A stretch of DNA of 64,000 bases, from the NCBI GenBank assembly GCA_002838815.1, contig LQGW01000034.1, positions 62,001 to 126,000 of the forward strand, in the 5' to 3' direction. Source of the stretch: Clostridiaceae bacterium JG1575. Its GTDB lineage: Bacteria; Bacillota; Clostridia; Clostridiales; Clostridiaceae. The notes beneath the pieces are model-generated. The model saw only the letters and a program-made list of their open reading frames with translations, did no database searches and was not told the origin of the DNA. The stretch's first letter is position 1; each line of letters begins with the position of its first letter. This document shows, piece after piece, positions 37,794 to 60,929 of the stretch. Both the position numbers and the translations under genes were made by a program.

Positions 37794-37857
37794 TCGCTTA
37801 TTTTGGGAAGCCGTTGAACTCTCTTTGGGCTTTTGCTATGATGGTAACAGCATAAAG

Positions 37858-38101: not shown

Positions 38102-38137
38102 TCTCCAGAGCCACGACCCATCGAAAGGAAAAGAACC

Positions 38138-40647: not shown

Positions 40648-42502
40648 TTATCATGATTTCAATCCACGCACCACGTGGGGTGCGACTAAAGGCGGGGCGG
40701 GTCACCATGGAGGAATTGATTTCAATCCACGCACCCACGTGGGGTGCGACTCCAGTTTTGCCATGCCCTCACCTCCTTTTCCCAATTTCAATCCACGCAC
40801 CCACGTGGGGTGCGACCGGAAAGATCGGCCCCGGTAAGATCGGCCCCATATTTCAATCCACGCACCCACGTGGGGTGCGACTAAGGAATCTTGAAATGCG
40901 ATTGAGGGTACTGATTTCAATCCACGCACCCACGTGGGGTGCGACCCCCTGAGATAGGCCCCCCTGAGATCGGCCCCGATTTCAATCCACGCACCCACGT
41001 GGGGTGCGACCCATGGTCTTTCTCGGAATGTAGTTTTGTAGCTTATTTCAATCCACGCACCCACGTGGGGTGCGACCTTGCGCTTGTCATAGTCGACGCT
41101 CGCCTCGATATTTCAATCCACGCACCCACGTGGGGTGCGACCATGGTATCTAATGGACTTTTCTGCCTGTTTTCATTTCAATCCACGCACCCACGTGGGG
41201 TGCGACAGTGGAAGAGGCAAGAAAGCGGTATCAATCGTCTATTTCAATCCACGCACCCACGTGGGGTGCGACGCGTAAGGTTGCAGCTTGCCTTTGTTAT
41301 CTCGATTTCAATCCACGCACCCACGTGGGGTGCGACATATGACTTCCGCTGACTTTTTCAAGGTAGTGATTTCAATCCACGCACCCACGTGGGGTGCGAC
41401 CTTGATCGTTCTCAATTCTTGATCGGCAATCCATTTCAATCCACGCACCCACGTGGGGTGCGACTACATTAACAAAGTGACCAGGTTTCAAAAAAGCATT
41501 TCAATCCACGCACCCACGTGGGGTGCGACGCAACTACCATTCGTGGCTAGAAATTCTATTGAAATTTCAATCCACGCACCCACGTGGGGTGCGACGACGA
41601 TCACCCGCTACGAGTCAGGTGATATCGAATTTCAATCCACGCACCCACGTGGGGTGCGACAAAAAAAGCCAATGTGCTTCCTGTTTGTCGGTATTTCAAT
41701 CCACGCACCCACGTGGGGTGCGACGGCGGGCACACGCATGGAGACGCCCAGCGCCCGATTTCAATCCACGCACCCACGTGGGGTGCGACCAAATTGTTTC
41801 TCAACGATAGCCGCCCTTACCTTATTTCAATCCACGCACCCACGTGGGGTGCGACTAATCACTTATTCACCCCCTTTCCTGCTCTTGAATTTCAATCCAC
41901 GCACCCACGTGGGGTGCGACAGGAGATCGAAAAATGAAAAAGATATTTAACGATTTCAATCCACGCACCCACGTGGGGTGCGACCATCTGTCAGTGATCT
42001 GCTGGAGTATAAGTCGATTTCAATCCACGCACCCACGTGGGGTGCGACCATCGTTAAGAAGGCCACATACGATGAGTTAGAAATTTCAATCCACGCACCC
42101 ACGTGGGGTGCGACCAAAAAGATTTGATGAGCAACTGACACAACTTAACATTTCAATCCACGCACCCACGTGGGGTGCGACTGTTCCCGCCTCTTGGAAG
42201 CATACTCCAACTCATTTCAATCCACGCACCCACGTGGGGTGCGACTTTGCAATTTACCGACTGAAAATGCCGGAAGAATTTCAATCCACGCACCCACGTG
42301 GGGTGCGACTTTCCATAGTTTTTATCTCCTTTTTATCGAGCATTTCAATCCACGCACCCACGTGGGGTGCGACCATCTCATAGCGGATGTTTCTCCCGCC
42401 AGAAACATTTCAATCCACGCACCCACGTGGGGTGCGACATTTCCCAAATTTCCAGTTTGTCTCCGTCTCGATTTCAATCCACGCACCCACGTGGGGTGCG
42501 AC
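40595..42502 (-). CRISPR. Type I-C CRISPR array, 30 repeats and 29 spacers
   Basis: The repeat is 32 nt, running in + orientation from ATTTCAATCCACGC to GGGGTGCGAC. In crRNA sense (minus strand) it begins GTCGCACCCC and ends GTGGATTGAAAT, the classic I-C form with a central palindrome. I counted repeats from 40595 to 42471 (start positions); spacers are 29-35 nt, mostly 32-34. The leader lies at the high-coordinate end beside cas2, so the newest spacers are near 42470 and the oldest near 40600. At the old end repeat 1 has two substitutions and repeat 2 (40656-40686) lacks one base. Open frames inside the array are not genes. Confidence 0.98.
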
Positions 42503-42650: not shown

Positions 42651-42941
42651 TTAAAGGATTAGTGGGGCTTCTAAATTTGGAGTGACTTTGGTTCCGTAGT
42701 GTTCAACTTTTCTCTTCCAGTTGTCACCAAGATGGTAGATTCGCAAGCTATCTTCAGAATGGTTCAAGATGGTAACAAGCTTAAACCGAAGCTCTTCAAA
42801 TTTTGCGGAATCGACCAGGCATTCGAATACTGAATTTTGAACTCTCACCCCGTAATTCAGGCATATTTTTGAAACACGTTGAAGTCTATTCCTTCCGGCC
42901 AAATCCATAGTTGAAACATCGTATGATACTAAGATCAGCAT
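42651..42941 (-). CDS. cas2: CRISPR-associated endoribonuclease Cas2
   Basis: This 96-residue protein has the ferredoxin-like Cas2 fold signature: N-terminal 'MLILVSYDVST' with the conserved Asp after the first strand, 'RLQRVSKICLNYGVRVQNSV' and 'DSLRIYHLG'. Cas2 bridges two Cas1 dimers in the spacer-integration complex. It is the last gene of the cas operon, 7 bp after cas1, and adjoins the leader, as usual in type I-C. Confidence 0.95.
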   Translation of the reverse strand: MLILVSYDVSTMDLAGRNRLQRVSKICLNYGVRVQNSVFECLVDSAKFEELRFKLVTILNHSEDSLRIYHLGDNWKRKVEHYGTKVTPNLEAPLIL

Positions 42942-42948
42942 ATCATAA

Positions 42949-43977
42949 TTACCTCAAAAAGAACGGGGGATATTGATCCAAGTCACCGCGAATGAAACGT
43001 GCCATTAAAAGTGCTTGAGTATAGGGTAAAAGACCGAGTTCAATTTTTTCATCTAGGAATGGGTGAGTGAATAATTCTTGTTTACGTTGTTGCCATGCGG
43101 CAAGGGCTGTTTTCTTAGCCTCCTCTGTCAGGATGATAGCACTGTCTTCCATTCGTATAAATTCTTTGGGGGTCAGTACACGATTATTGATCAGAGTCAG
43201 TACGAAACGATCCACTAGGTAGGATCTCATCTCTTCCATTAAATCCAATGCAAGGGAATATCTACCAGGGCGATCCTTATGATAAAAGCCAACCTGAGGA
43301 TCAAGACCAACCGTCTCAAGGGCAGCCTTGCAATCATGACTTAACAGAACGTAAAAGAATGAAAGGAGCGCATTAACTTCATCCTTGGGAGGTCTTTTAC
43401 TTCGGCCACCAAAGGAGAAATCAGGGGAGAAAATCAGATGATTAAAGACTGAAAAATAGGCTTTTGCAGCATCGCCTTCGATCCCCAGTAGCATCTGGTC
43501 GTTGGAAGCCTTGCACACTGAATCGGCAGATGATTTCATCTGAATTATGGTGTTTTGAAGCTCGGAAAAACTAGTTATTTTATCTGAGTGGTCTCTTTTA
43601 AACCGTAGAAGATTTTGTCGCGCGTTAAGTATTTTTGCAAGGATTAGATTCTTTGCCACACCCAAAGAATCTTGGGCGGATGCAGACAGATTATATTGCG
43701 CTCGTCGCAGTCGCACGTTTCCATGAATGGGATTTTGGATCGCTACTAAAAATTCTCCTGTGTGCGATAAAAAAGAAGCAGAAATTTGATGCTCAGAAAA
43801 CATTTTTAGAAGCTGTGGGGTTATGGTTGTGGTATTGAAAAAGACAATGGATTCGAAATTATGGACAGGGTATTGCGCAATTTTTACTCCTTCTTCCTCT
43901 ATTCTTATCGTTTCCCCGTCCTTCGAAAAAAACAGCTTTTCCTTTGTAACATATAGGGTATTAAGTAGTTTTCTCAT
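42949..43977 (-). CDS. cas1: CRISPR-associated endonuclease/integrase Cas1
   Basis: This 342-residue integrase joins new spacers into the array. The catalytic metal residues are seen as Glu in 'MLLGIEGDAAKAYFSVF' and the His/Asp region 'GLDPQVGFYHKDRPGRYSLALDLMEE'. The N-terminal beta domain is 'LLNTLYVTKEKLFFSKDG'. Cas1 acts as dimers with Cas2, and in I-C with Cas4, which trims and orients prespacers next to a TTC PAM. It overlaps cas4 by 17 bp. Confidence 0.95.
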   Translation of the reverse strand: MRKLLNTLYVTKEKLFFSKDGETIRIEEEGVKIAQYPVHNFESIVFFNTTTITPQLLKMFSEHQISASFLSHTGEFLVAIQNPIHGNVRLRRAQYNLSASAQDSLGVAKNLILAKILNARQNLLRFKRDHSDKITSFSELQNTIIQMKSSADSVCKASNDQMLLGIEGDAAKAYFSVFNHLIFSPDFSFGGRSKRPPKDEVNALLSFFYVLLSHDCKAALETVGLDPQVGFYHKDRPGRYSLALDLMEEMRSYLVDRFVLTLINNRVLTPKEFIRMEDSAIILTEEAKKTALAAWQQRKQELFTHPFLDEKIELGLLPYTQALLMARFIRGDLDQYPPFFLR

Positions 43978-44629
43978 GGATCATCCTTTGAATATAGGAG
44001 TTCACGGAGCGATTTTTGGAAAGCGCTTTTGGGAGGCAATCATTATGTAGGGAACATTGAAGGCACTTCTTTTCAAAAATTGGTTCAATAGTTTCTCCAG
44101 TTTTCATAAGGTGATGCATTTTTAGGGCTGCTTTTATGGTGAGTTCTCGAAGTTCTTCAGTCATTTCTACAGTCGATCTTCTTTTTATACCATTGTAGAA
44201 AAGAGAAGCAGTTGGAATATTACAGCCCATCATCTCTTCGAGGCATAATACCTGCAGACAAAGCTGAGCTTCATCACAACGATCTTTCTTGGGTTTTCCA
44301 AGTTTGTATTCCACGGGATAAGGTTGATAAGTTCCGCGATGCCCGCTGATGGGGATACCCATTGGATCGGGGATCAGTTCTATGGCGTCTGAGACGCCAT
44401 AGAACTGTAGCTTATTTGAAATCAAAGGAACACTTCTTAGAGTTATTCGGCCGTTTCTTAACTCACGAAACATTCGGTCATCAACATTTTTATGAACATT
44501 GGTACCCCTAACAGTGAGTATATTTTCAGACCAAATACCTTCGGAATGGATCAAACACCATTGCCGTTCACAAAAAAGAAAGTGTTGGATCCCTGAGATC
44601 ATCAAATAGTCAGAATCCCAATCCATCAA
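43961..44629 (-). CDS. cas4: CRISPR-associated exonuclease Cas4
   Basis: The 222-residue RecB-like nuclease has an iron-sulfur cluster site made by a cysteine in 'FLFCERQWCLIH' and three in 'CLQCSLHNDCLP'. The nuclease residues are Asp in 'FYGVSDAIELIP' and Glu-x-Lys in 'PVEYKLGK'. In type I-C it processes prespacers so that their PAM end is correctly set before Cas1-Cas2 integrates them. Overlaps of 4 bp with cas7 and 17 bp with cas1 show a compact operon. Confidence 0.94.
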   Translation of the reverse strand: MMDWDSDYLMISGIQHFLFCERQWCLIHSEGIWSENILTVRGTNVHKNVDDRMFRELRNGRITLRSVPLISNKLQFYGVSDAIELIPDPMGIPISGHRGTYQPYPVEYKLGKPKKDRCDEAQLCLQVLCLEEMMGCNIPTASLFYNGIKRRSTVEMTEELRELTIKAALKMHHLMKTGETIEPIFEKKCLQCSLHNDCLPKALSKNRSVNSYIQRMIHEKTT

Positions 44630-45462
44630 CGCCCCTCAAGAACCTCAGGAACTAATCCATCAAGATCCGTCTGGGAAATAACAAAATCATCCACATCTTT
44701 TGGAATTGAGACATCCTTCTTCATCTCAATATTGATTGTGTTATGTACTTTTGCTGCGGAATATTGTCCGTGCGGGTTGGCGTGTTCCCACCAATAAACT
44801 TTTAGGACTTCCATACTTCCGTCTGGGCGAGCAGAGGAAGCATCTCCCTCAAAAAGCTCGACCAAAGCTTTTTTGATTTCTTCGGCATCTTCTTTTGAGA
44901 AACCTGTCTTTTCCGCAAGTTGAGGGCTAATGCTACCTGAGAAGGAATAAAGACCGAAGTCCACACGATGCTTCATCCCCATTGTGTCCGAAGATTTTTT
45001 TTCATCGGTTACACTGTTTACACTTTTGGTAATCTGCATTGAATTAACTGTTACTGGATGAGCGCTGACTGCACTTTGTACGGACACGGGTCCTCTTACA
45101 GCAAAACTTACTTTCGATCCTTTAAAGGCAAATACCTGACCAAAGGAACGCACATCCAACCATTGTTTACAAACTGCAACTCGCCGTTTTTCAGCATCGG
45201 TTGCCGAGTCTTTTCCTAAGATTCCTTCTTCCCGATCCTTTAACGATCTGTATTCATCAACTTTATTGTCATCTGATTGAACAAAAATGTTGCATCCGTT
45301 TGCTAAAAGACGATTTCGAATTTTTCTCTTAATACAAACATCTGAGATTTCGCCAAAGCCATCATAATTGACTCTAGGCCGATTTTCGTTAAGAGGGTCG
45401 CCGTTGGGATTGGCTTTTTTTACACTTAAGATCACTTTGAAATCAATTTTATTCATCATCAT
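44626..45462 (-). CDS. cas7: Type I-C Cascade backbone protein Cas7 (Csd2)
   Basis: This 278-residue Csd2-family protein has the signature 'SVKKANPNGDPLNENRPR' followed by 'GEISDVCIKRKIRNRL'. Several copies polymerise along the crRNA spacer to form the Cascade backbone, kinking every sixth base. It lies between cas8c and cas4 with 1-4 bp overlaps. It shares the motif with the second Cas7 at 57.9 kb, but the two differ in most other positions. Confidence 0.95.
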   Translation of the reverse strand: MMMNKIDFKVILSVKKANPNGDPLNENRPRVNYDGFGEISDVCIKRKIRNRLLANGCNIFVQSDDNKVDEYRSLKDREEGILGKDSATDAEKRRVAVCKQWLDVRSFGQVFAFKGSKVSFAVRGPVSVQSAVSAHPVTVNSMQITKSVNSVTDEKKSSDTMGMKHRVDFGLYSFSGSISPQLAEKTGFSKEDAEEIKKALVELFEGDASSARPDGSMEVLKVYWWEHANPHGQYSAAKVHNTINIEMKKDVSIPKDVDDFVISQTDLDGLVPEVLEGR

Positions 45463-47354
45463 TATTCCTCCGATTGTTGATCAATTTTATTATTGTCAAG
45501 ATCTTTTTTAGCTTTACTCTTTTCTTCTACGCGTTTTTGAAGTTCCATCAACTGGCAATGGTATGCCAATAGAAATTCCGGTTCTAGTGGAGTGTTCAGA
45601 GTAAAATCTTCCGAATCAAACAAACTCATCACTTCGTTAATCTGTCCCTGATGCCAACTGGCCTTTCCTTTTAACCGATCTAAGTAAGGTCTTAAAGAAA
45701 GTTCGATAGTTTTCCAAGTGGTGTAGGGATGGACCGAGAATTCATGGAGGTAGCGTTCAGCATTGGTAAGCCGATCCTCCTTAGCCTCAAACAAGGCCCA
45801 GCTTTCGATGTTTTGTGCCAGCGCTAAAAGTCGTCCATAAAGGTAACTCCTCGTGCTGCGATTAACATCCAGTCCCATTTCAAAATCCTCCTTATGATAG
45901 TCTTTGTAATATTTACGAATCAGTGAGCAACTGATTGTAAGGGCACGACTAAACTGGTTTGCTGTGAGTCCTGATCGATTTTTGGCACGGTTAAAGCAAG
46001 AAAACATTAAATCCACAGGGAGCGGGGTTCCATCTACAATGCAACGAACGATTCGGTTGAGATTGTGATACTTTAGTGAATCACTGATGTTTTTACCGAA
46101 TCCCAACGAACATTCAATGATATCGTAGGGAGAAGGGGGCCCATAAAATGGATTTATAACATATTTATCCCCTTGTTTTTTCCAAAGGTAACTATGCAAC
46201 CAGCTGGTTTCATTTTGCCATTTGTTGACTCGATCAATGTATTCTCCTGTGGGGAGCTCCTGGAAGTACGTAATGGATAAACGGCCAGGAGTTGCATTTT
46301 CAAGGGACATGATGACGACCTGATCGTCTGAGCTAATATTGGCCTTATACCCTAAGATGGCATTCGTTAGTTCCTTGGCCATTGCCTGGCCGGTATCATG
46401 AATTGCCTCGGATTCGATGAAGCCAAATGCAGTCTCAAACAATACGGGGATCGGATTGTCATCAATGGACCAGCAAAGATATACGGAAGAACCACTAACT
46501 AATCCTTGACGTTGAATCAGCCATTTCAAGGCGGCGTGCACTTTTTGTGAGGCTTCATAGCTGATTCCATAAGCCTCTTTTGCAGAAATAAAACGCCCTC
46601 GGTAGGTAAAGTTTGTATTGTCATTGGAACTGATGAGTTTTGCGTTGGCTTGATTTCGATTGATGCTTTTTGGGTGAATGCGAGATAGACTTGCCTTTTT
46701 GCCCGTCACCTGACAAAGTCCATCTTGAGGCATTGAACTGACGTAAAAAGAAATCCAGGAGCGATACAGTGTTTCGTCCAACCAAGTCTTGACATTAGGA
46801 TTTCCCGGCAATTCAACTTTCCAACGGACAAAACCAGAGATTGGAGAGGTTGTAGATTTAGTGCCTGCCCATTTTGGGGAAATAGATCCATCGTCTTCAA
46901 TCAGAAAAATAGTTCCTGCAGAGACTAAATCATGAAGAGTTGTATTTTTCTTTGTGTAGTTTAAGATGGAGCGAAGTGAGGGATGACCAGAGGCGCCTAC
47001 CCAATTTTCTAGAGTTTCTAGGTATTTGGCTCGAAGCGCTACCTTATTATCGTGGTCCGTATCTTTTGATGGCTTGTAAAAATCTAGGAAGTCCCCAGCG
47101 ATATACTGCAATTTATCGACTAAAGGATGCGGCAAAGGACGTGTACCAGAGCGACCCGCGGATTCCTCTGTGCAGGGAATAATCGTGAGCTCATCCTCCT
47201 GTGGTACGCGATCTGCCTCTAAAAAGTTCCCATATTGATCTAGAGTAATCTCAATTTGAACTTTCTGTTGCATGTGGCAAATGGGAGTCAGCTCAGACGT
47301 CTTGTCGGATTCATTCCGGTCGTATGTTTTTAATAAGCTATTGATCCAGCTCAT
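45462..47354 (-). CDS. cas8c: Type I-C Cascade large subunit Cas8c (Csd1)
   Basis: The protein starts 'MSWINSLLKTYDRNE', the usual Csd1 N-terminus, and has the C-terminal 'YLYGRLLALAQNIESWA' motif and 'EFLLAYHCQLMELQKR'. It has 630 residues, close to the family norm. Cas8c recognises the PAM and recruits Cas3; in I-C an internal start within cas8 often yields a separate Cas11-like small subunit, which could also occur here but was not confirmed. An earlier in-frame ATG (47384) lies inside cas5; GGAGGAGAG supports 47354. Confidence 0.93.
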   Translation of the reverse strand: MSWINSLLKTYDRNESDKTSELTPICHMQQKVQIEITLDQYGNFLEADRVPQEDELTIIPCTEESAGRSGTRPLPHPLVDKLQYIAGDFLDFYKPSKDTDHDNKVALRAKYLETLENWVGASGHPSLRSILNYTKKNTTLHDLVSAGTIFLIEDDGSISPKWAGTKSTTSPISGFVRWKVELPGNPNVKTWLDETLYRSWISFYVSSMPQDGLCQVTGKKASLSRIHPKSINRNQANAKLISSNDNTNFTYRGRFISAKEAYGISYEASQKVHAALKWLIQRQGLVSGSSVYLCWSIDDNPIPVLFETAFGFIESEAIHDTGQAMAKELTNAILGYKANISSDDQVVIMSLENATPGRLSITYFQELPTGEYIDRVNKWQNETSWLHSYLWKKQGDKYVINPFYGPPSPYDIIECSLGFGKNISDSLKYHNLNRIVRCIVDGTPLPVDLMFSCFNRAKNRSGLTANQFSRALTISCSLIRKYYKDYHKEDFEMGLDVNRSTRSYLYGRLLALAQNIESWALFEAKEDRLTNAERYLHEFSVHPYTTWKTIELSLRPYLDRLKGKASWHQGQINEVMSLFDSEDFTLNTPLEPEFLLAYHCQLMELQKRVEEKSKAKKDLDNNKIDQQSEE

Positions 47355-48066
47355 TGCTCTCCTCCATTCTAATGAGCTCCTCATAAGTTGAATCTTTAAA
47401 ATTTACTTGAGGCAAGGAGTACTCTGTTTCACGAATGAGTCTCGACGGCAAGTCCCCCAGTGAAGCATCAAAAATAATCTCTCCATGATTCATCGTGGGT
47501 TTCCAAAAGTAGGCCATGAACTTTTTGTTTTTAGGATTGGGGTAAGTGAATCGATAAAACATCAAATCGAAAGGGATTATCCCCTTGTCATCGTAGTATC
47601 CCTTCTTCGCCCCATAGGTTACGGGTTCAACATAGGCTTGACACTCTCGAGTGCCTAAAAAGATGTCCCGTCGGCCACCCTTGTTTACCATGCGAAGAGC
47701 GATTTGATGGTGCTTATGTTCATTTCGATCCGAGGCAAGATCATCTCTACTCAAGTCCCATTCAAAATGAGCATTGACCTCATATTCGACATCGCTCAAA
47801 TAGGTATAGATACTTAAATCATTGGCTTTGGTACCGGCGTAAAAAATAGGGCGAACGCCTTGGCTTTGCATTCGGATGGGGTTCATGATTCGGACTGAAT
47901 CTACAACCCATTGGAATGTAGGTTTCCAGTAAATGGACTCACATATCCCTTTTAGTGCTTCGTAGGTTGGAATTTGATAGGAAAATTTTTCTCCTCCAAC
48001 ACGAGTGATCGGATCACTAAATAGAGCGTAGCGACCATGAACTTTGAAAGAAATACTGTTTCTCAT
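47338..48066 (-). CDS. cas5c: Type I-C Cas5 (pre-crRNA processing endoribonuclease)
   Basis: In type I-C, Cas5 replaces Cas6: it cuts each repeat and holds the 11-nt 5' handle of the crRNA in Cascade. The 242-residue protein keeps the catalytic set known from B. halodurans Cas5d: Y46 in 'ESIYWKPT' and the Lys-His pair K118/H119 in 'NEHKHHQIALRM'. 'GVRPIFYAG' and 'FLGTRECQAYV' are also family-typical. It should therefore process the adjacent array. It lies between cas3 and cas8c and overlaps the latter by 17 bp. Confidence 0.94.
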   Translation of the reverse strand: MRNSISFKVHGRYALFSDPITRVGGEKFSYQIPTYEALKGICESIYWKPTFQWVVDSVRIMNPIRMQSQGVRPIFYAGTKANDLSIYTYLSDVEYEVNAHFEWDLSRDDLASDRNEHKHHQIALRMVNKGGRRDIFLGTRECQAYVEPVTYGAKKGYYDDKGIIPFDLMFYRFTYPNPKNKKFMAYFWKPTMNHGEIIFDASLGDLPSRLIRETEYSLPQVNFKDSTYEELIRMEESNELDQ

Positions 48067-48079
48067 GCATCCTCCTTGA

Positions 48080-50467
48080 TCACAATGCGGTAAGTGTTAA
48101 GTTGTAGGATTTAGGATCAAATCCCGTAGTCTCGTGATAGTAGCCCTCATTAATGATGTGAATCGTAGGGCCAGCCTTAGTTTGAATATCGTAAATCACT
48201 CCCTTCTTTATAAGATCATCCAATTGATTGTCAAATAGATTCACGGAATACCGTTGCGCCTCATTCAATAAATTTTTCAGGTTGCTTTGATCTGCAGCCA
48301 TCAGTTCAGCAATGATCTGGGTTCCTCTTCCATAAGGTGCGATAGCTCCCAAGGTATTATTTTCAAGCACACGATAATGATCTCCTGCAGTCTTAAAGCC
48401 ATACCATAGCTTGATCTTTGGAGTCCCCTTCGGCTTTAAAGATCCCAGTGCCGCCGTATTAATTGAAAGCAGGTCGATCATAGTCGTAGTGAGCGCAGGT
48501 AAATAAACGAGGTAGGGCATTTTCTTCTGCTCATCTTTGTCGTGATATTTAAATAAATAGTATTTGTCCATGCTCTTTTGTGAAAGAAGAGAATGATCAA
48601 AGGCCTCAGGGTTTTTGTCAAATTCCCTTAGGATCCTCCGTGTGATCGTTGCATCGTTTTTTATAGCGGTAAGCTTATCGAGCCTTTCAAAGTCAGGATT
48701 GATCAATAACACATCGCCAAGATTTGATCGATTTCCATGTCGGTTGCAGCGTCCTGCCGCTTGAACAATGGAATCCAAACCGCTTAGGGATCGGATGACT
48801 GTATTGAAGTCTACATCCACGCCCGCTTCAATAAGCTGTGTGCTTACAAGGCAAACAGGAAGGTTTCGTTCTAATTCTTCAATAACCTTCTTTAGAATTT
48901 TCTTTCGATGTTCTGGGCACATGGAAGTGCTTAAATGGTAGGTATGAGGAAGAGCCGCAAGGTGTGAATAAACAGCTTTAGCCGCACTTTTCGTATTGAA
49001 AACACTTAAAACACTTTTCCCTTGTAATTGAATCTGACGAATTAGTTCGGCCGTTTCTTCCTCTGACCATTGCTCTATTTTTTGTTCATTCTTTACGCGA
49101 ACACGAGTCAGTTTTTGTTCGTAATATTCTGGTTGCTTCACGATTTCGTTTTGGGGTGGGATTACTAGGGAATATTCTTCTTGTTCTAGTCCATTTAGAA
49201 GAGGCTGTGTAGCAGTGCATAGGATAACGCTGCTGTTGCATAAAGAGGTTAAAAATTGAGTCAACCGGTTAAAAAGATAGATTTGCTTTACCTCAAGAGC
49301 TTGTACCTCATCAAATATGATTAGAGAATTTGAAAGCTGGTGGAATCGACGCTCAGATTGTGTACTCGATGAATAGGCAGATTCCAGCAGTTGAACCATT
49401 GTTGTAAAAACAATCGGAGCATCCCAATTCTCGGCGAGGACCCGCATTTTCAGTGTGTCATTTTCAGGCAGGAGGTTGCTGTGGTGCTCTAAAACATAGT
49501 CCGAATAAGCAGAACCAAGAATTTCTCGAGTCACTTGAGCGTTTTGATCCGAAATCGTTGTAAAGGGCAATACATAGATCACTCGGTCAAAATCATGTTT
49601 TTTGCAATGGTGTAGGCCAAATCGTAGACTGGATAAAGTTTTTCCACCCCCAGTCGGAACTCGCAGAGTAAAAATACCCGGCGGGAGGCTGGCAGAGTTC
49701 AAGCAATCTTTAGAGATTTGAGATCTCAGTTGATTGATTGGCGTATCACTTTTAAATTTCAGGATCGATTGTTCATATTGATCGATTAATTCGCTCCAAC
49801 TGGGATATTCAACATTCCGGAGCGTTTTGACCTCAACGTTTGAAAAGTCAATGGTGTCTGTACGATCCGCATCAATAAGGCAACTATAGAGAGCTCTGAT
49901 AAGAAGCCCAAGAAAAAAAATTCTGGCTTCTTTACTGCTGATAGCTAATGGAACAGTCAGTATTCTTTTTACGGCAAGGTCAAATTCATTGGCCATTGCT
50001 TCATAGTTGAGGGTAGATTCCAGGGAAGAATTTTGAAAAATTGAGAGAACCTCTTGGTAGTGAGGCAGAGGTTTATTCATTCGATTTAAAAAATCAGACG
50101 AACCATCGTAGTATATGAAATCCCTAAGACCACCGTGATGGCCAATTACAGTCATCGCCATGGCTTCGCGAAGAAGTGGATCTTTTATATTAGGATTATT
50201 ATAGAGGAATTGCGCTCCTGCTGTAGAGTGATCCACTTTCCCCGGATCCATATGGCCTTCGGATAAACCGGTTCGCTGACGAATCATCGCTTGAAAATCA
50301 GAGGAGTATTTCCCCAAATCATGAACCAAACCGATCGCATACGCAATATTCGGAAGACCGAGCTTTTTACCTCGGATCCTCGCTAATTCTGCAGTATATT
50401 TCAAATGGTCTGAAACGGTCTGGATTTGACCATCAAATTCTCGATAGTGAGCGATATAACTCTTCAT
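48080..50467 (-). CDS. cas3: Type I-C Cas3 helicase-nuclease
   Basis: The 795-residue effector nuclease degrades DNA after Cascade binds. The HD nuclease domain has 'GLVHDLGKYSSDFQAMI' (His49-Asp50) and 'VIGHHGGLRDF'. The helicase has Walker A 'VPTGGGKT' (near 270), 'IIFDEVQAL' (DEAH-type box), 'LCTATQPLL' (motif III) and 'QAAGRCNRHG' (motif VI). It is the first gene of the cas operon and is complete. GGAGG is correctly placed. Its promoter region (50.58-50.61 kb) is the apparent target of the crRNA-like RNA encoded divergently. Confidence 0.95.
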   Translation of the reverse strand: MKSYIAHYREFDGQIQTVSDHLKYTAELARIRGKKLGLPNIAYAIGLVHDLGKYSSDFQAMIRQRTGLSEGHMDPGKVDHSTAGAQFLYNNPNIKDPLLREAMAMTVIGHHGGLRDFIYYDGSSDFLNRMNKPLPHYQEVLSIFQNSSLESTLNYEAMANEFDLAVKRILTVPLAISSKEARIFFLGLLIRALYSCLIDADRTDTIDFSNVEVKTLRNVEYPSWSELIDQYEQSILKFKSDTPINQLRSQISKDCLNSASLPPGIFTLRVPTGGGKTLSSLRFGLHHCKKHDFDRVIYVLPFTTISDQNAQVTREILGSAYSDYVLEHHSNLLPENDTLKMRVLAENWDAPIVFTTMVQLLESAYSSSTQSERRFHQLSNSLIIFDEVQALEVKQIYLFNRLTQFLTSLCNSSVILCTATQPLLNGLEQEEYSLVIPPQNEIVKQPEYYEQKLTRVRVKNEQKIEQWSEEETAELIRQIQLQGKSVLSVFNTKSAAKAVYSHLAALPHTYHLSTSMCPEHRKKILKKVIEELERNLPVCLVSTQLIEAGVDVDFNTVIRSLSGLDSIVQAAGRCNRHGNRSNLGDVLLINPDFERLDKLTAIKNDATITRRILREFDKNPEAFDHSLLSQKSMDKYYLFKYHDKDEQKKMPYLVYLPALTTTMIDLLSINTAALGSLKPKGTPKIKLWYGFKTAGDHYRVLENNTLGAIAPYGRGTQIIAELMAADQSNLKNLLNEAQRYSVNLFDNQLDDLIKKGVIYDIQTKAGPTIHIINEGYYHETTGFDPKSYNLTLTAL

Positions 50468-50576
50468 GATTATCCTCCTGTTTTTCTCGAATAACTTTAG
50501 GCCATTCTTATAGGAACTACTTTAGGTAAAGTATATCCAACCAAAGGGACAAAATTCGTTTTCATCGTTTAATGAG

Positions 50577-50605
50577 AGTATAATCCCGAGAAAAAAATAA
50601 TTCAA
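50577..50605 (-). promoter_or_regulatory. Promoter of the type I-C cas operon
   Basis: On the minus strand TTGAAT (50605-50600), 17 bp and TATACT (50582-50577). The -35 overlaps a TTC PAM (50601-50603, + strand) and the start of the match to the divergent crRNA-like RNA. Confidence 0.65.
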
Positions 50606-50621
50606 TATGTTTTGAGATATT
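50601..50621 (+). promoter_or_regulatory. Candidate Cascade operator (TTC PAM plus partial protospacer)
   Basis: TTC at 50601-50603 is directly followed by AATATGTTTTGAGATATT (50604-50621). This equals the first 18 nt of the spacer-like segment at 50672 except for position 6, the base that Cascade flips out. It overlaps the -35 boxes of both the cas promoter and the RNA's own promoter. Confidence 0.7.
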
Positions 50622-50639
50622 TTTATATAGTGATAAAAT
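50612..50639 (+). promoter_or_regulatory. Promoter of the crRNA-like RNA
   Basis: TTGAGA (50612-50617), 16 bp and TAAAAT (50634-50639). The expected start at about 50646 is the first base of the repeat-like sequence. Confidence 0.6.
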
Positions 50640-50645
50640 GGGGGT

Positions 50646-50735
50646 GTCGGGGGAGCCCCGTGGATTGAAAGAATATTTTTTGAGATATTAAGCCCGAAGA
50701 AAAGTTGGTTGTGCCAATTTTTCTTCGGGCTTAAT
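50646..50735 (+). ncRNA. CreR/CreA-type crRNA-like regulatory RNA of the I-C system
   Basis: A shortened I-C repeat (50646-50671) keeps the crRNA-sense ends, 5' GTCG and 3' GTGGATTGAAA, around a replaced stem GGGG/CCCC. The 11-nt handle that Cas5 and Cascade hold is conserved apart from its last base. A spacer-like segment follows from 50672; its first 18 nt match the PAM-flanked site at 50604-50621 in 17 positions. A 14-bp hairpin (AAGCCCGAAGAAAA at about 50690, with 50720-50733) ends the unit and also serves lplA. Partial complementarity should allow Cascade binding without Cas3 cleavage, repressing cas transcription. This function is inferred from architecture. Confidence 0.75.
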
Positions 50736-50787: not shown

Positions 50788-51774
50788 TCAGTTCAACAAA
50801 AAGGAGCACCATTCTTCTTGGGTCATGCCCTTAAAATAATCCTCCAGATCCAAAGAAGATAAGTGGGTCATAAGATCTTGGCGCTCATATTTAGAGCCTT
50901 TTAATGCATTCTCAAGACCAGAAATGCCTTCTTTTACAAAAAAATCCCCATAAATTTTGATGTCCTCAAGTGCCCCTTTTTTGATGTTCATCCGCACATC
51001 CACAATACCAAAGGGAAATTTTGCAACTTTTTGCAGGGTGAAAAGGGGAGTTCGGCCGTAGTTCCAGTCCCAACTCATAAACTTTTTCTCTGTAAGTTCC
51101 TTGTGAATGGCTTTTTCTTTCGAGGAGAGCTCGTATTCTTCTAAGGGATACATCTCACCGATGGTTTCTAGTAAAAGTCCTTGAAAGGCTTCGATGGTCA
51201 AGGTTTGATCTGGTAAGTACTCCATGATATTCGTCACGCGGGAGCGTACCGATTTGACCCCTTTGCTTTGAATCTTAAGATCTTTCACTTTAAGGGATTT
51301 ACTGAGTTCGGACATATCGGAATTGAATAAAATGGTCCCATGCTGCAGCAGACGCCCGTTGCTGAAATACTGAGCGTTGCCTGAGAATTTCTTCCCATCG
51401 ATGAGTAGGTCGTTGCGGCCCGAGAGTTCTGCGGCAATGCCCAGCTTTTCCAATGTTCTTAGCACGGGGCGAGTTAACACATCAAATTTATTCACGTCCT
51501 CTCGGCTGCCCCGCACCACAAAGGAGAAATTGAGGTTGCCGTGGTCATGGTAGACGGCTCCACCGCCGGAGAGACGGCGCTGCACATGAATGCCTGCGCG
51601 TTTCACGTAGTCTTCATTGATTTCCTCCAAGGTGTTTTGATGTTGCCCCACAATGATGGAAGGGTCATGGATGTAAAAAGTGAGGTAGTCATCCGAAGGT
51701 AGATGGTTGATGATGAGATCTTCCATGGCCATGTTGTATGCCGGGATGGGCCAATGCGTTTTTATGTATTTCAT
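50788..51774 (-). CDS. lplA: Lipoate-protein ligase A
   Basis: LplA attaches lipoate, via lipoyl-AMP, to lysines of E2 or glycine-cleavage H proteins in the cytosol. The 328-residue enzyme has the family signatures 'QRRLSGGGAVYHDHGNLNFS' (binding loop), 'GRNDLLIDGKKFSGNAQY' with the conserved lysine, and 'HGTILFNSDM', followed by the C-terminal accessory domain. It is monocistronic and ends against the terminator hairpin shared with the crRNA-like RNA. Lipoylation suits a glycine/threonine-degrading anaerobe, since glycine cleavage needs a lipoylated H protein. Confidence 0.95.
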   Translation of the reverse strand: MKYIKTHWPIPAYNMAMEDLIINHLPSDDYLTFYIHDPSIIVGQHQNTLEEINEDYVKRAGIHVQRRLSGGGAVYHDHGNLNFSFVVRGSREDVNKFDVLTRPVLRTLEKLGIAAELSGRNDLLIDGKKFSGNAQYFSNGRLLQHGTILFNSDMSELSKSLKVKDLKIQSKGVKSVRSRVTNIMEYLPDQTLTIEAFQGLLLETIGEMYPLEEYELSSKEKAIHKELTEKKFMSWDWNYGRTPLFTLQKVAKFPFGIVDVRMNIKKGALEDIKIYGDFFVKEGISGLENALKGSKYERQDLMTHLSSLDLEDYFKGMTQEEWCSFLLN

Positions 51775-55125: not shown

Positions 55126-55791
55126 ATGGTAAACACATCGTACCCTATTATGATGGAGATTGCTGGCAATACGGCGTTATGGACAAGACCTGATACCGGG
55201 GATTCTCCGTGCAGCTATCCAGCACCGACATACTCAGCTGTGCGCGGACTGTTTGAGAGTGTATTGTGGGGGCCTGCCGTTCTTGTGATCCCGAGACGAG
55301 TTGAGCTTTGCAGCATACCGCAGTACCACTCCTATGCAATGAACTATGGTGGGCCGTTGCGAAGCACCACGTCGATCAGGAATGGGAATAATTATCAGCT
55401 ATTTGCAACGGTGCTGACAGACGTGTGCTATCGGCTCTATGCGGATGTGGTTCCTAATCCAAAGAAAGAGATTTTGCCTGAAAGTGCGGCAGCATGGGAC
55501 AGGCGGACGACATCGCCCGGGCATGCCTATCAGGAAATATTTAATCGCCGATTGAAATGTGGTCAATCCTATGCGACCCTGTCGTTAGGCTGGGCCGAGT
55601 TTACAGCATCTTACTTCGGTCCGTTTCGGGGAACGACAAAGATATGCTCGGAACTGCCGGATATTCAGATCCCTTCTATGTTGCGTGGTGTTTTTCAAAA
55701 TGGGTATCAATCTGAATATAACGCAGTTTACGATGTTGATGTACTTGTCCACGAAGGAGTTCTTGTGTATCCGAAAAGAGGCGATTGGTGA
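55126..55791 (+). CDS. cas5: Cas5, I-C-like, lacking the processing residues
   Basis: This 221-residue protein aligns with I-C Cas5 in 'YPAPTYSAVRGLFESVLWGP' and 'EIFNRRLKCGQ'. The tyrosine of the catalytic triad (Y46 of the Cas5 at 47.3 kb) is replaced by L47 ('ESVLW'), and the Lys-His pair is missing: the aligned region reads 'SPGHAYQEIF' (130-139). It probably still caps the crRNA 5' end in a Cascade-like complex but should not cut repeats. It is the first gene of a four-gene operon with AAGGAGG upstream, and its stop overlaps the cas8 start (TGATG). Confidence 0.85.
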   Translation: MVNTSYPIMMEIAGNTALWTRPDTGDSPCSYPAPTYSAVRGLFESVLWGPAVLVIPRRVELCSIPQYHSYAMNYGGPLRSTTSIRNGNNYQLFATVLTDVCYRLYADVVPNPKKEILPESAAAWDRRTTSPGHAYQEIFNRRLKCGQSYATLSLGWAEFTASYFGPFRGTTKICSELPDIQIPSMLRGVFQNGYQSEYNAVYDVDVLVHEGVLVYPKRGDW

Positions 55792-57878
55792 TGATCAACG
55801 AATTAAGACAACTTAGTCAAGCAATGGAGGAATCAAACATAAATGGGGAAATCTGGCACCAGAAATACAAACCGATTCCGAACATCAGAGCTAACGCACC
55901 GTGCGTTCGTATTTTGATCGATGACGGTAAAGTGATCGAACTTTCGTCTGTAGATCAAAACAAAGGGTCGTGCTTACGAAAATTCGGGACAAACCAAGGC
56001 TCATACCCATGCATGAATTTAGCGCCACTTTATCGGATTACTGATAGCGAAGTAAAGAAGAAGCTGTCGTCTTTGCGACCTGAAGACCTGGATGAAGATC
56101 GGATCGATAGGATAAGGAACTGGTGCACAGATAGCAATTGGGGAAGTAAGTTTCAAGGAAAATATAAGGTTTCCATGAAAAATACGACAACCGAACTGGC
56201 TTCCCTTGTCCCGGATTTTAAATCCATACAGATATTGATAGGCCAGAGTAATTATTTTCTTGACTCTGCCAAACTTCATCAGGAAATGGAAAATGTGGCT
56301 TTTGAAATGCTCTCGAGCAAACATGAAGTTTCATTGGCGCTGAGTGTCCTATTTCACTATGGCAATCCCGATAAAAATGCAGTAGATGATTATGGCTCTA
56401 TCTCAGTTGCGTTCGATTCTCCCAAATTGATCATGGGCATGTCGGTGGTGAGCAATAAATTTACTGCGAGCTTTAACGCTTGTTTGTTGTCAGCGGAATC
56501 GACGCGGCTGAAAAAAAACGATGTACCCGGTATCGACGCCTCCTACATTGTCGACGCCTTCGGCATTAAGTTCGATCCGTTAGAACAACCCATGCCGGAA
56601 GTGAAGCTTGCAGGAGGATTTGATGTGAAGCTTCGCACGATGTTTAAAGAACAGCACTGCCAAACAAGATACCGTAAAATCGAAAACGCAAGCTACCCAA
56701 TATCTCCACTGATGCGAGAAAAACTTCAGGCATCACTTAACTGGTCTGGGAGGAAAGATAAAGAAAATATCATATGGATTAATACGGATAGAAACGAAAT
56801 TTTGTTCGCATACCCGGTTGATTTGATTCATGAGGATGTCTCGTATACAAGGATGTTCAAACGAGCGCAGAAAAACGAGAATGCCGTGGAAAAAGAGATT
56901 GCCTTTGAAGAACAGGCAAAAAGATTTATCACCGAAATACGCTCGGCTAAAAAACCGGGGGCGGATTCAAATGCTGAGAAAATCGAACTGTTTATTTTGA
57001 GAAAGATTGATAAAGCTCGTACAAAGGTTGTTTATACACGCCAGACTGATCCGTATGAGCTTGAAAAACAAAGTGAAGCATGGACAGCGGGATGCCGGAA
57101 TCTCCCGACTTTTACTTTCGGCCTACCAAGCATCCCATTTCCCTTGGATATGGCCGATATTTTGAACTGTTTTTGGAATCAGAAGGGCGAATTGATAACA
57201 GACAAGTTTAAACCAGTACCAAAGTATCATGGGATTGAGCTGTTGATGGACAGCCAGTTCCCAGTGACTGCCGACCTCCATTGCCTGGTTGAAAAAGCAA
57301 TGACTATAAGCGTATTTCTCAGGAATAGACTTGCTACAGGGAACTTGAATCATCACAAAAGGGGTAAATTTAAAGATATGTTGGCATTGATTGGGCTTAT
57401 GCTCTATCGCAAAGGCATAGGAAAGGATGAGTATATGGAAAGCTTACCCTATCTCTACGGACAGCTACTCAAGGTATCGGACGAGCTTCACGCGCTATAT
57501 TGTAAAGTGGTGCGTGATAATGAGTTGCCGACGAAGTTGGCTGGCGGAAGCCTGTATCAGGCTGCGGCCGAAGCCCCAATTCGGACACTGAACCTTTTGG
57601 GGCAGCGGATGAACCCGTATATTCTATGGGCAAAAAACTATCGAACAAAAAAAATAACCGAAAAAGGGAAAGAGAGCTGGAAAGCGGGATGGTTCATTTC
57701 GTTGTATGAAAATATAGCCACAGAACTCCTTACTGCATGGAGCACCCAAACCAGATTCAATGATGAGGAAAAAGCACTGCTGTTCCTCGGATATCTTGCG
57801 AACTTTCCAAAGAAAGAACAGACTGCAGATGGAACGGAAGAATTAAATAAAACTGAGGAGGTAACTGACCATGAGTGA
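55791..57878 (+). CDS. cas8: Cas8c-like large subunit (divergent Csd1)
   Basis: The 695-residue protein occupies the Csd1 position between cas5 and cas7. The C-terminal 'SLPYLYGQLLKVSDELHALY' corresponds to the Csd1 'YLYGRLL' motif of the first system, and 'FNDEEKALLFLGYLANFPKK' to its C-terminal 'EFLLAYH' segment. The N-terminus has no 'MSWxNSLLKTYD' start, so it is a distant member. It would recognise PAM and recruit Cas3; its PAM may differ from TTC. Internal initiation for a small subunit could not be judged. The start at 55791 overlaps the cas5 stop. Confidence 0.75.
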   Translation: MINELRQLSQAMEESNINGEIWHQKYKPIPNIRANAPCVRILIDDGKVIELSSVDQNKGSCLRKFGTNQGSYPCMNLAPLYRITDSEVKKKLSSLRPEDLDEDRIDRIRNWCTDSNWGSKFQGKYKVSMKNTTTELASLVPDFKSIQILIGQSNYFLDSAKLHQEMENVAFEMLSSKHEVSLALSVLFHYGNPDKNAVDDYGSISVAFDSPKLIMGMSVVSNKFTASFNACLLSAESTRLKKNDVPGIDASYIVDAFGIKFDPLEQPMPEVKLAGGFDVKLRTMFKEQHCQTRYRKIENASYPISPLMREKLQASLNWSGRKDKENIIWINTDRNEILFAYPVDLIHEDVSYTRMFKRAQKNENAVEKEIAFEEQAKRFITEIRSAKKPGADSNAEKIELFILRKIDKARTKVVYTRQTDPYELEKQSEAWTAGCRNLPTFTFGLPSIPFPLDMADILNCFWNQKGELITDKFKPVPKYHGIELLMDSQFPVTADLHCLVEKAMTISVFLRNRLATGNLNHHKRGKFKDMLALIGLMLYRKGIGKDEYMESLPYLYGQLLKVSDELHALYCKVVRDNELPTKLAGGSLYQAAAEAPIRTLNLLGQRMNPYILWAKNYRTKKITEKGKESWKAGWFISLYENIATELLTAWSTQTRFNDEEKALLFLGYLANFPKKEQTADGTEELNKTEEVTDHE

Positions 57879-58740
57879 AATGTTCAAACGCGCAACAGGT
57901 CTTTTAATAATTGAAGTCGTCAATTCCAACCCTAACGGTGACCCTGATCGCGAAAGCGATCCGCGTCAGCGACCCAATGGCTGCGGGGAGATCTCGCCAG
58001 TCTCATACAAGCGAAAAATCCGTGACTTGCTCGATGATCACGACGCTGCATTTTTCAAAGCACTACCTGAAAAATATAGCCTGAATCCCCAGAACTATAA
58101 CATTTTAGAGCATCGCGGACGCGATAGGAAATCCATTATAGCTGAGATGGGCAATGACCCTTCAAAGTTCGGGGAAAGCGAATTTGTACACAAATACTGG
58201 GATGCCCGTGTCTTTGGCAACACATTTTTACAAGACGGCGGCGACAAAGCATTTATTAAAACAGGTGTTGTACAGTTCGGCATGGGCGTTTCGATTGCTC
58301 CCATTGTTATTCTCCGTCAGACCAACACAAATAAGGCTGGTGTGCAGGAAGGGAAGAGTGCCGGTATGGCGCCTCTTGCTTATCGCATCGTCGAACACGG
58401 CGTGTATTGTATGCCCTTCTTTGTAAATCCGAACTACGCCCACAAGAGTGGTTGCACCGCTAATGATATCGAGCTTTTGAAGTTGCTGATCCCCTACGCC
58501 TATGAGATGAACCGTTCCGCCATTCGTCCTGATGTCCGCCTGCGCCACGCCTGGTACATCGAGCATAAAAACATGTTGGGAAGCTGCCCGGAACATCTAC
58601 TCTTTGAAGCGCTGACGCCGGAAAAGCTGGGCAACAAAACCGATCCATCTACAAGCTGGAGTGATTATCAGGATAAGACTGGGCTTCCAGAAGAGCTTTT
58701 TTCTCGTGTGGAGAGCTTCATCGATCTAGTCAATGCGTAA
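57871..58740 (+). CDS. cas7: Cas7 backbone protein, Csd2-like
   Basis: The 289-residue protein has the Csd2 hallmark 'VVNSNPNGDPDRESDPRQRP' and 'GEISPVSYKRKIRDLL', corresponding to the same segment in the first Cas7. 'YWDARVFGNTF' and 'HGVYCMPFFVNPNYAHKSG' are also family-like. It should polymerise on a crRNA. It overlaps cas8 by 8 bp with GGAGGT placed for its ATG, and ends in TAATG with cas3. Sequence divergence from the first Cas7 shows it is not a recent duplicate. Confidence 0.88.
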   Translation: MSEMFKRATGLLIIEVVNSNPNGDPDRESDPRQRPNGCGEISPVSYKRKIRDLLDDHDAAFFKALPEKYSLNPQNYNILEHRGRDRKSIIAEMGNDPSKFGESEFVHKYWDARVFGNTFLQDGGDKAFIKTGVVQFGMGVSIAPIVILRQTNTNKAGVQEGKSAGMAPLAYRIVEHGVYCMPFFVNPNYAHKSGCTANDIELLKLLIPYAYEMNRSAIRPDVRLRHAWYIEHKNMLGSCPEHLLFEALTPEKLGNKTDPSTSWSDYQDKTGLPEELFSRVESFIDLVNA

Positions 58741-60929
58741 TGGAGTATCTTGCACACAGCGCAAAGGCAGACAGCATTGCACAGACCTATTCCGACCATG
58801 TGGCTGGCGTCTGCCACAGAGCTGAATGGTATGCCAACGAAGCGGAACGGTATTCGCCAATTTGCGAGGGGCAACTGAAAGAAATAGTGCGGCGCAGCGC
58901 GCTCTGGCATGATTTGGGTAAGTTGGACGACGACAATCAAGCTGTATTGCATGATCCCTCGTATAAGCAACGCCACCTACCATGGAACCATACTGATGCT
59001 GGTAGCGCTGCTCTGAAAGCATCCGACAGCCTCTACTCCGCACTTATCGTTTATTCCCATCACATTGGCCTGCCTGATATGGAGTCAGAAGGTGCGAGAG
59101 GCAAGAATTTTTTTCGCGATGACAGGTATTCCGTAAGAAATCATTTCGATTTCGAATTAACGAAGTTATTGCGGCGGCATACGGAAATTCTCTCGATGGA
59201 TGGACGTGGCGTGGAGGAACCGACCAGAGCAGATTTGCCTCTCTTTTTCCGAATGGCGCTTTCCTGCCTTGCGGATGCTGACCATACGGATACTGCCGTC
59301 GCGTATAGGCAGGTACCGGAGTGTGAAAACCTGCCGCAGCTTTGTGCAGAGAAACGACTGAAAAAATTGAACAAGTATGTGTCGGAGCTTAGTAGCGATG
59401 ATGAACGCAGCCATCTGCGCAGCGAAATGTATTTCGCCTGCCGTGACGCGACGGTGACCGGCGGATTTACCGCATGTGACAGTCCTGTAGGCTCAGGAAA
59501 AACGACGGCTGTGATGGCGCATTTGCTTAAGCAGGCGATGGAACGTAACGCAAGGAGGGTTTTTGTTGTTTTACCTTATACCAATATCATAAAACAATCG
59601 GTAGATATTTATCGAAAATCATTGGTTCTGCCGGGTGAGAATCCGGAAGAAGTTGTAGCAGAACTTCACTGTCGTGCGGATTTTCAAGACAAAGATACGC
59701 GTTACTTGACATCGCGCTGGCGCGCGCCAATTATTGTAACAACTGCTGTCGCGTTCTTTGAGACTCTGGCTTCCAATAGGCCATCTGCTCTAAGGAGGCT
59801 CCATGCGCTGCCAGGAAGCGTTGTTTTTGTTGACGAGGCACACAACGCGTTGCCTCTTAAGCTCCTCCCATTGGCATGGAGGTGGATGTATAAGCTTGCC
59901 GAGGAGTGGAGCTGCTATTGGGTACTGGCTTCAGGCTCTCTAGTGCGTTATTGGATGCTTGACAGCTTGAAGCCGGTTGAAATGTTGCAACCCATTGTTA
60001 ACGAACTGATCAATGAAAAACTGCGTGAACAACTTATGCGGTATGAACGGCATAGGGTTACTTTTAGATGGAGACCCGAGGCTATAAGCCGTAAGGAATT
60101 GATGGATTGGGTTCAAAGTATGCCCGGCCCGCGACTGCTGATCGTTAACACGGTACAAAGTGCCGCGGCAATCGCTAACGATTTTTGTAGCACATATGGG
60201 AGATATAGTGTCGAGCATTTGTCTACGGCATTAACAGCAGAAGACAGGAGTAGCACGATAGAGCGGGTAAAAGTACGCCTTAAAGATGAACGCGAAACGG
60301 ACTGGACGCTTGTCGCAACATCCTGTGTTGAGGCCGGAGTAGACTTTTCTTTTCGGAGCGGCTTTCGCGAACTATCGTCTTTGCTTTCCCTCCTTCAAGC
60401 TTCCGGTAGAGTGAATCGTAGCGGTTTGTATCCGGGCTCGGTTATGTGGAGTTTTACTTTGCAGGACGATTCCATATTGAAAAAAAACCCTGCCTTAGAG
60501 ACTTCTCGCGAGGTACTGAGAAGTTATTTTGCAAAAAATGCAGAAATTGCGCCGGTATTAAGCACAAAGTCAATGAATGATGAAATTATTCAAGACGACA
60601 GCTGCCTAAAAACGATTAAGCGACTGAATGCTCTGGAAAATTTGAATCAGTTTGATACTGTCTGTAATGAGTTTGCGGTGATCGAATCCAATACAGTGCC
60701 AGTCGTTATAGATGACGACCTTGTAAAGTCGATCGAGTACGGCCTTGGCGATTGGCAGCTGCTTCAAAAAAAGTCCGTCTCCATTCGCCGTGAGAACATT
60801 AAGGCGTGGAATGTGAAGGAGCTTGCAAACGGCGTATTTCACTGGACGCTAGAGTATGATTCCTTTCTCGGCTATATGCGCGGCGTGCTGGATATTCAGA
60901 AAAGTAAGAACGATATGCTGATGGATTAA
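58740..60929 (+). CDS. cas3: Cas3 helicase-nuclease of the second system
   Basis: This 729-residue protein keeps intact nuclease and helicase sites. HD domain: 'ALWHDLGKLDDDNQAVL' (His57-Asp58), 'VYSHHIGLPD' (about 104-113) and 'ADADHTDTA'. Helicase: Walker A 'DSPVGSGKTTAV' (247-258), 'VFVDEAHNAL' (DEAH 365-368), motif III 'LASGSLV' (SGS instead of SAT) and motif VI 'QASGRVNRSG'. It should thus be an active DNA-degrading effector. Unlike in typical I-C loci it is the last gene, and the operon contains no adaptation genes. It is coupled to cas7 through TAATG. Confidence 0.9.
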   Translation: MEYLAHSAKADSIAQTYSDHVAGVCHRAEWYANEAERYSPICEGQLKEIVRRSALWHDLGKLDDDNQAVLHDPSYKQRHLPWNHTDAGSAALKASDSLYSALIVYSHHIGLPDMESEGARGKNFFRDDRYSVRNHFDFELTKLLRRHTEILSMDGRGVEEPTRADLPLFFRMALSCLADADHTDTAVAYRQVPECENLPQLCAEKRLKKLNKYVSELSSDDERSHLRSEMYFACRDATVTGGFTACDSPVGSGKTTAVMAHLLKQAMERNARRVFVVLPYTNIIKQSVDIYRKSLVLPGENPEEVVAELHCRADFQDKDTRYLTSRWRAPIIVTTAVAFFETLASNRPSALRRLHALPGSVVFVDEAHNALPLKLLPLAWRWMYKLAEEWSCYWVLASGSLVRYWMLDSLKPVEMLQPIVNELINEKLREQLMRYERHRVTFRWRPEAISRKELMDWVQSMPGPRLLIVNTVQSAAAIANDFCSTYGRYSVEHLSTALTAEDRSSTIERVKVRLKDERETDWTLVATSCVEAGVDFSFRSGFRELSSLLSLLQASGRVNRSGLYPGSVMWSFTLQDDSILKKNPALETSREVLRSYFAKNAEIAPVLSTKSMNDEIIQDDSCLKTIKRLNALENLNQFDTVCNEFAVIESNTVPVVIDDDLVKSIEYGLGDWQLLQKKSVSIRRENIKAWNVKELANGVFHWTLEYDSFLGYMRGVLDIQKSKNDMLMD

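Follow-up and report, generated by a model that had tools for sequence, protein, structure and literature searches.

The 320-bp gap between the type I-C cas3 gene and a lipoate-ligase-like gene of Clostridiaceae bacterium JG1575 houses, as read from the sequence, a compact plus-strand unit made up of predicted promoter, repeat, guide and terminator. We propose, with a probability of about 0.86, that this unit is a type I-C CreR, an RNA that would let Cascade repress its own cas operon. The anatomy and uniqueness of the unit can be read directly from the DNA, as can, in comparison with other loci, the fact that guide, target, PAM, phase and handle are under selection. The window referred to throughout is the whole stretch of 64,000 nucleotides that was analyzed, and coordinates are positions within it (Table 1).

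Anatomy of the intergenic unit and its target

The operon next to the unit encodes a complete type I-C set (Cas3, Cas5c, Cas8c, Cas7, Cas4, Cas1 and Cas2). A script located 28 identical minus-strand copies of the array repeat (40719-42502), whose crRNA-sense form is GTCGCACCCCACGTGGGTGCGTGGATTGAAAT. Read in crRNA sense, the array closes with two degenerate repeats (40595-40690), one that has a changed stem and ends in GTGGAGTGAAAT, followed by one that is a base short.

Table 1. Features of the cas locus and of the adjacent intergenic unit
Feature	Position	Strand	Basis or remark
Type I-C CRISPR array	40595-42502	-	source of canonical crRNAs
cas4, cas1, cas2	42651-44629	-	family models (cas4, cas1); position and size alone (cas2)
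cas7 (csd2)	44626-45462	-	TIGR02589
cas8c	45462-47384	-	TIGR01863 and further family-model search
cas5c	47338-48066	-	TIGR01876, 226 bits
cas3 (type I-C), first gene of operon	48080-50467	-	family models
cas3 promoter, predicted, TTGAAT-17-TATACT	50605-50577	-	9/12 consensus
PAM TTC	50601-50603	+	direct reading and script
Target (protospacer-like) AATATGTTTTGAGATATT	50604-50621	+	one mismatch to guide, at position 6
Small-RNA promoter, predicted, TTGAGA-16-TAAAAT	50612-50639	+	10/12 consensus, with TG
Degenerate type I-C repeat GTCGGGGGAGCCCCGTGGATTGAAAG	50646-50671	+	26 nt; direct reading and script
Repeat stem CGGGG/CCCCG, 5 bp	50648-50660	+	sequence and RNA folding
Handle TGGATTGAAAG, 11 nt	50661-50671	+	sequence, compared with array repeat
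Guide AATATTTTTTGAGATATT, 18 nt	50672-50689	+	direct reading and script
Intrinsic terminator hairpin, 20 pairs, closing the RNA	50689-50733	+	terminator scan and folding
Lipoate-ligase-like gene	50788-51774	-	named by eye

A first-pass annotation, made from the letters alone, had noted a lone repeat-like sequence outside the array, with a new stem and a terminator hairpin closing the unit. Direct reading and a script place the repeat where that annotation had put it, 179 bp from cas3, folding from 50646 reproduces the 5-bp stem, and the 20-pair hairpin is present. The handle is identical to the local array repeat at 10 of 10 fixed bases. Outside the array, the array-repeat end GTGGATTGAAA occurs once in the window (at 50660, by script), and the draft genome contains 32 copies, comprising 29 in the array, one in the unit and two others; the latter (C34:24987 and C44:23664) have no repeat-like stem ahead of them, as judged by eye. 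The unit consists of one repeat followed by a terminator, not of the two repeats of a mini-CRISPR.

The spacing of the predicted promoter suggests that the small RNA starts where the repeat does, close to 50646. With this start, the folded RNA reaches -42.1 kcal/mol (z -7.1) and forms a small stem with a 3-base loop, followed by the terminator; the 5-bp stem ends exactly where the 11-nt handle UGGAUUGAAAG starts, 11 nt being the handle length given for type I-C crRNAs (PMC5965380). The start site matters, since folding from 50640 instead yields a different stem.

When up to four mismatches are allowed, the guide AATATTTTTTGAGATATT has a single other match in the whole window, AATATGTTTTGAGATATT, with agreement at 17 of 18 positions and homology ending after position 18. 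A script thus verified the earlier observation that the guide recurs behind TTC with its only mismatch at position 6. TTC is the PAM of one studied type I-C system (PMC8406640), and the combination of TTC and the seed, TTCAATATNTTTTG, occurs once in the entire 2.38-Mb assembly. When 300 nt of intergenic sequence were dinucleotide-shuffled 3000 times, the longest chance match, with positions 6, 12 and 18 ignored, was 13, versus the 17 observed.

The target had also been said to cover the -35 elements of the divergent cas3 promoter and of the RNA's own promoter, and it does overlap both, as predicted by scan: the small RNA's -35 (50612-50617) is spanned completely, and the overlap with the cas3 -35 (50605-50600) is confined to the PAM and the opening bases of the target. 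Both promoters are consensus matches in AT-rich DNA, and the scan returned 3 such sites against 1.7 ± 1.3 in shuffled sequence, so they are plausible but not proven.

Guide-target pairs in other type I-C loci

Type I-C-like loci were gathered by means of Cas5c from the window's order, class and phylum and from named genomes. The phylum search contributed 78 places among the matches listed, and the search of named-genome contigs with a two-sequence Cas5c alignment found 241, of which 80 were kept; a Cas3 query against the named-genome contigs and a search of viral contigs returned no relatives. Relatives obtained by cas3 were mostly distant or carried a cas3 apparently of another subtype. The locus set numbered 236. 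A cas3 frame was missing from 12, and 16 of the other 224 had less than 150 nt upstream and were dropped; once loci duplicated over the first 300 nt of cas3 had been collapsed, there were 197 unique cas3 upstream regions, the window's among them. These regions held 197 handle sites, and removal of 58 array members gave 139 stand-alone handle-like sites, for each of which we determined the best local match to the bases following the handle.

With guide positions 6, 12 and 18 ignored, 23 of the 139 sites match over at least 11 bases, as opposed to 7 when nothing is ignored, 7-9 for each of the five other six-base phases, and 0-2 per set (mean 0.35) in 20 sets of shuffled guides. A first scan had given 26 sites matching at least 10 bases versus 3 with reversed guides. 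The flank is TTC (11), CTC (7) or TTT (4) in 22 of the 24 sites that match at least 10 bases. A match alone is insufficient, since 1390 decoys (GAAA-ending but not handle-like) gave 20 matches of at least 11, with mixed flanks; handle, PAM and phase are needed jointly. Five matches of at least 9 bases lacking a TTC, CTC or TTT flank (L288, L278, L297, L221 and the second L238 site) were deemed due to chance.

A region was counted as containing a unit if a stand-alone handle was accompanied by a local match to the guide and a TTC, CTC or TTT flank; by this rule 22 of the 197 cas3 upstream regions, window included, contain a unit, and most of the regions contain none. The units come from about twelve lineages at the genus level, among them Lactonifactor, Hominifimenecus and three Bifidobacterium genomes, and guide and target mismatch across them at positions 6 and 12. 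Targets lie upstream of cas3, except at L118, where the target falls inside the called cas3 frame; L118 and L238, with a target some 790 bp upstream, are the weak members of the set.

The mismatch at position 6 had been interpreted as a base free of pairing, an interpretation borne out by the six-base phase (23 vs 7-9) across the 197 regions. Type I-E Cascade flips crRNA bases 6, 12 and 18 (PMC5965380), and the positions ignored here were taken from that system; PMC11417383 does not contain the base-flipping terms searched for. Since no text found states flipping for type I-C, the phase seen in the survey is itself evidence for it there, and the comparative data amount to natural evidence for unpaired guide bases 6 and 12 in this subtype.

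Six related units, five from one genus and one from a second genus of the same family, allow guide and target to be compared as both diverge. Their guides TTTAGAAATTATTATGT, TTTAAAAATTATTATAT, TTTAAATGTTATTTTAT and TTTAAAAATTATTGCAT face targets TTTAGAAATTAATATGT, TTTAATAATTAATATAT, TTTAATTGTTAATTTAT and TTTAATAATTATTGTAT, respectively; guide and target change together at positions 5, 7, 8, 14 and 16, positions 6 and 12 vary freely, and the last pair, from L214, has an additional mismatch at position 15. For the units of Bifidobacterium bohemicum and B. commune, covariation is seen at positions 2, 4 and 5, and in three units of another genus guide and target differ within positions 1-17 solely at position 12. 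Together, covariation and the six-base phase point to a guide-target pairing held by selection in other type I-C loci. No close relative carrying the window's own guide/target pair was found: two other genomes of its genus gave no cas3 match, and the best Cas3 relative in the cas3 search (Cas3 41% and Cas5c 58% identical to the window's) has a different upstream region without a unit.

The remaining parts of the unit recur as well. A stem of at least 5 pairs ending exactly at the handle is present in 18 of the 22 units, window included; random positions show one in 9.6% of cases, and handle-like sites that lack a target in 18 of 112. A terminator-like hairpin lies downstream in 15 of the 22, where random stretches give 86 of 985. 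In the mini-CRISPR form, represented by L210, L212, L213, L204 and L214 among these 15, it is a second repeat-like hairpin 21-24 nt past the handle; the other 17 units show no clear second repeat by eye. At the 16 of 22 loci where the array could be read, the handle type always follows the local array (six units with handle TGAGTTGAAA and arrays ending in TGAGTTGAAA; ten with TGGATTGAAA and TGGATTGAAA arrays, the L197 handle being one base off), and at none of the 16 is the unit repeat identical to that of the array. The CreR-like reading first put forward for this unit has hence withstood comparison, on the strength of PAM-flanked guide/target pairs elsewhere, six-base phase, covariation and handles that track the array.

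Overlap with a promoter did not emerge as a general rule. In a crude scan, 8 of the 22 targets overlap a predicted cas-direction promoter, where random placement gives 27%; because this is hardly above chance, the cas promoter is a plausible target for the present unit but not established as one in general. At seven loci (L210, L213, L212, L204, L214, L187 and L097) the target lies 3-41 bp before the called cas3 start. The same crude scan finds overlap with the RNA's own promoter in 2 of the 22 units, window included.

Several sites were seen that fall outside the 22. The L090 site has a TTC flank and mismatches at positions 6 and 10. In one genome (G053; L066/L078), the first 15 guide bases are identical to those of L087, and by coordinates the unit (L078:5732, plus strand) sits between cas3 and cas5, its target just before cas5; the L161 site, with a TTT flank and about 310 bp before cas5, resembles this arrangement. 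Related regulators may thus guard different promoters of the operon. Upstream of cas3 at L236, L244, L145, L232 and L282 there are stand-alone handles matching at 10 of 10 bases, with stems of 5-7 pairs and, by the same rule, no nearby target; their guides may act at other sites, or they may be units in decay or repeats of the Racr kind.

Proposed mechanism and alternative readings

From this organization we infer transcription, processing, binding, repression and sensing by the RNA along the following lines. A short crRNA-like RNA would start at the degenerate repeat, and Cas5c would cut it at the base of the small stem, or bind it uncut, leaving the handle; cleavage by Cas5c at the 3′ end of the stem has been reported (PMC6546361). 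The RNA would load into a Cas5c-Cas7-Cas8c Cascade, for which a second repeat may be dispensable, since Cascade of type I-C lacks a 3′ Cas6 cap (PMC7684278). The 18-nt guide would lead this Cascade to TTC and AATATGTTTTGAGATATT, the odd position 6 being a flipped-out base. Pairing over 17 bases would suffice for binding but be too short for a full R-loop, so cutting by Cas3 is not expected; in type I-E the R-loop is locked, and Cas3 recruited, when pairing is complete (PMC6546361), which we assume to apply to type I-C. Bound Cascade would overlap the -35 boxes of the cas operon and of the small RNA, establishing a negative feedback that would relax when array crRNAs use up Cascade, or when Cascade is blocked, whereupon production would climb again. 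Array crRNAs vie with the RNA for these proteins, so repression should fall with Cascade scarce or blocked; by analogy with published CreRs, the RNA could in this way sense free Cascade or anti-CRISPRs.

A broader form of the proposal, toward which we lean only slightly, is that autoregulatory guides, most of them with one repeat, recur in a minority of the type I-C systems of Bacillota and Bifidobacterium (at least 22 of the 197 regions, window included), that their pairing over some 12-19 nt is selected except at the flipped positions 6 and 12, and that here one Cascade binding event silences two divergent promoters, making the unit a self-limiting sensor of free Cascade.

The complete coverage of the RNA's own -35, next to the marginal contact with that of cas3, would also suit an RNA whose main client is its own promoter, limiting its own amount or serving as a decoy that occupies Cascade, with a minor effect on cas3. 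We regard this as improbable: the factor common to the units is a target upstream of cas3, and because only 2 of 22 show the own-promoter overlap, such control is not what selection kept across lineages. Still less probable is a CreA-type antitoxin of a CreTA module, in which the repressed transcript would hold a toxic small RNA or peptide and loss of Cascade would be harmful. A 22-codon ATG frame (50497-50565, minus strand) does lie between the cas promoter and cas3, in the predicted leader, possibly by chance or as a leader peptide, but it has no tandem rare arginine codons, which are a feature of CreT, shows no ribosome-binding site by eye, and is preceded by a promoter that runs straight into cas3. 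Across the intergenic region the next gene is the lipoate-ligase-like one, whose minus-strand frame ends at 50788, and the region itself shows short frames alone, none recognizable as a toxin. What favors a CreA is its like build, with one or two degenerate ectopic repeats (PMC9458426).

It is just as unlikely that the unit is a relic without present function, either the eroded end of an old array or an anti-CRISPR repeat (Racr, or solitary repeat unit) left by a mobile element. Solitary repeat units likewise consist of a lone degenerate repeat after a promoter, and inhibition of a type I-C system by a Racr of the same subtype has been demonstrated (PMC10651486). Neither origin requires a guide, however, and here the guide has one genomic target, with a PAM and the position-6 phase, in a design that recurs elsewhere with different guide/target pairs. 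Racrs are virus- or plasmid-borne and located away from cas genes, whereas this unit adjoins cas3, and a blastn search against 50,697 phage and 72,556 plasmid records returned no similar DNA.

Relation to known systems and neighboring elements

CreRs were reportedly described by Liu et al. in 2023 as cas-regulating RNAs of types I-B, I-E and V-A; a two-repeat mini-CRISPR is usual for them, but not universal. The unit shares with them a predicted crRNA-like RNA from an ectopic repeat with partial complementarity to a cas promoter: its degenerate repeat stands outside the array near the cas genes, its handle is compatible with the effector, and its limited, PAM-flanked complementarity is to a predicted promoter. 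It differs in belonging to type I-C, with Cas5c in place of Cas6 as the expected processor, in ending with an intrinsic terminator after one repeat, and in a target that also spans the RNA's own predicted promoter. Standalone-repeat regulatory elements are also said to have been predicted across types I and V-A by Shmakov et al. in 2023; these would resemble the unit as mini-arrays or standalone repeats with a spacer partly matching cas promoters, and differ from it in often being two-repeat mini-arrays. In type II-A, Workman et al. are said to have found in 2021 that a long-form tracrRNA acts as a natural guide turning the effector on the cas promoter, although that system reportedly uses Cas9 and a tracrRNA, with no repeat-derived crRNA.

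The CreA of type I-B CreTA resembles the unit in its one or two degenerate repeats and in Cascade-guided promoter repression (PMC9458426), but its client is a toxin gene, and none was recognized here. RacrIC1, a phage RNA anti-CRISPR of type I-C, is likewise a solitary I-C repeat, but it is an inhibitor encoded by a prophage, where it shares an operon with an acr gene (PMC10651486), and would presumably need no host target. CreR is listed for types I-B, I-E and V-A, or for "Type I and Type V-A" (PMC12737573, PMC13131331), and its logic is that of effector autorepression, proposed to respond to crRNA supply or anti-CRISPRs (PMC12737573, PMC13131331, PMC12948488). Among the titles and opening lines of abstracts covered by our literature search, no type I-C CreR was noticed, and the 2023 predictions of Shmakov et al. 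may well include some. The unit is thus very probably a CreR, a kind already published for types I-B, I-E and V-A, and what is new is this member, with its single repeat and two-promoter target.

Type I-C is among the most prevalent subtypes (PMC7684278, PMC6546361). If our reading is right, RNA-guided self-repression is built into many type I-C systems, beyond types I-B, I-E and V-A, which would explain the low expression of such systems and a possible response to anti-CRISPRs. The survey also supplies guide/target pairs for finding the shortest match that binds without cutting.

The window further contains a second, divergent type I-C-like effector operon at 55126-60929 on the plus strand, encoding Cas5c-like, Cas8c, Cas7 and Cas3 proteins, its Cas8c matching a different model (PDLC01562). 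Neither cas1, cas2 nor cas4 was recognized among its frames, its upstream region shows no stand-alone handle and no guide match, and the searched part of the window holds no second array; this operon may borrow crRNAs from the main array. Searched with Rfam at the gathering threshold, the whole window shows nothing beyond two T-box leaders (RF00230) on the plus strand, at 4561-4769 and at 37844-38068, the latter at the start of a gene, named by eye as methionyl-tRNA-synthetase-like, at 38054-40081.
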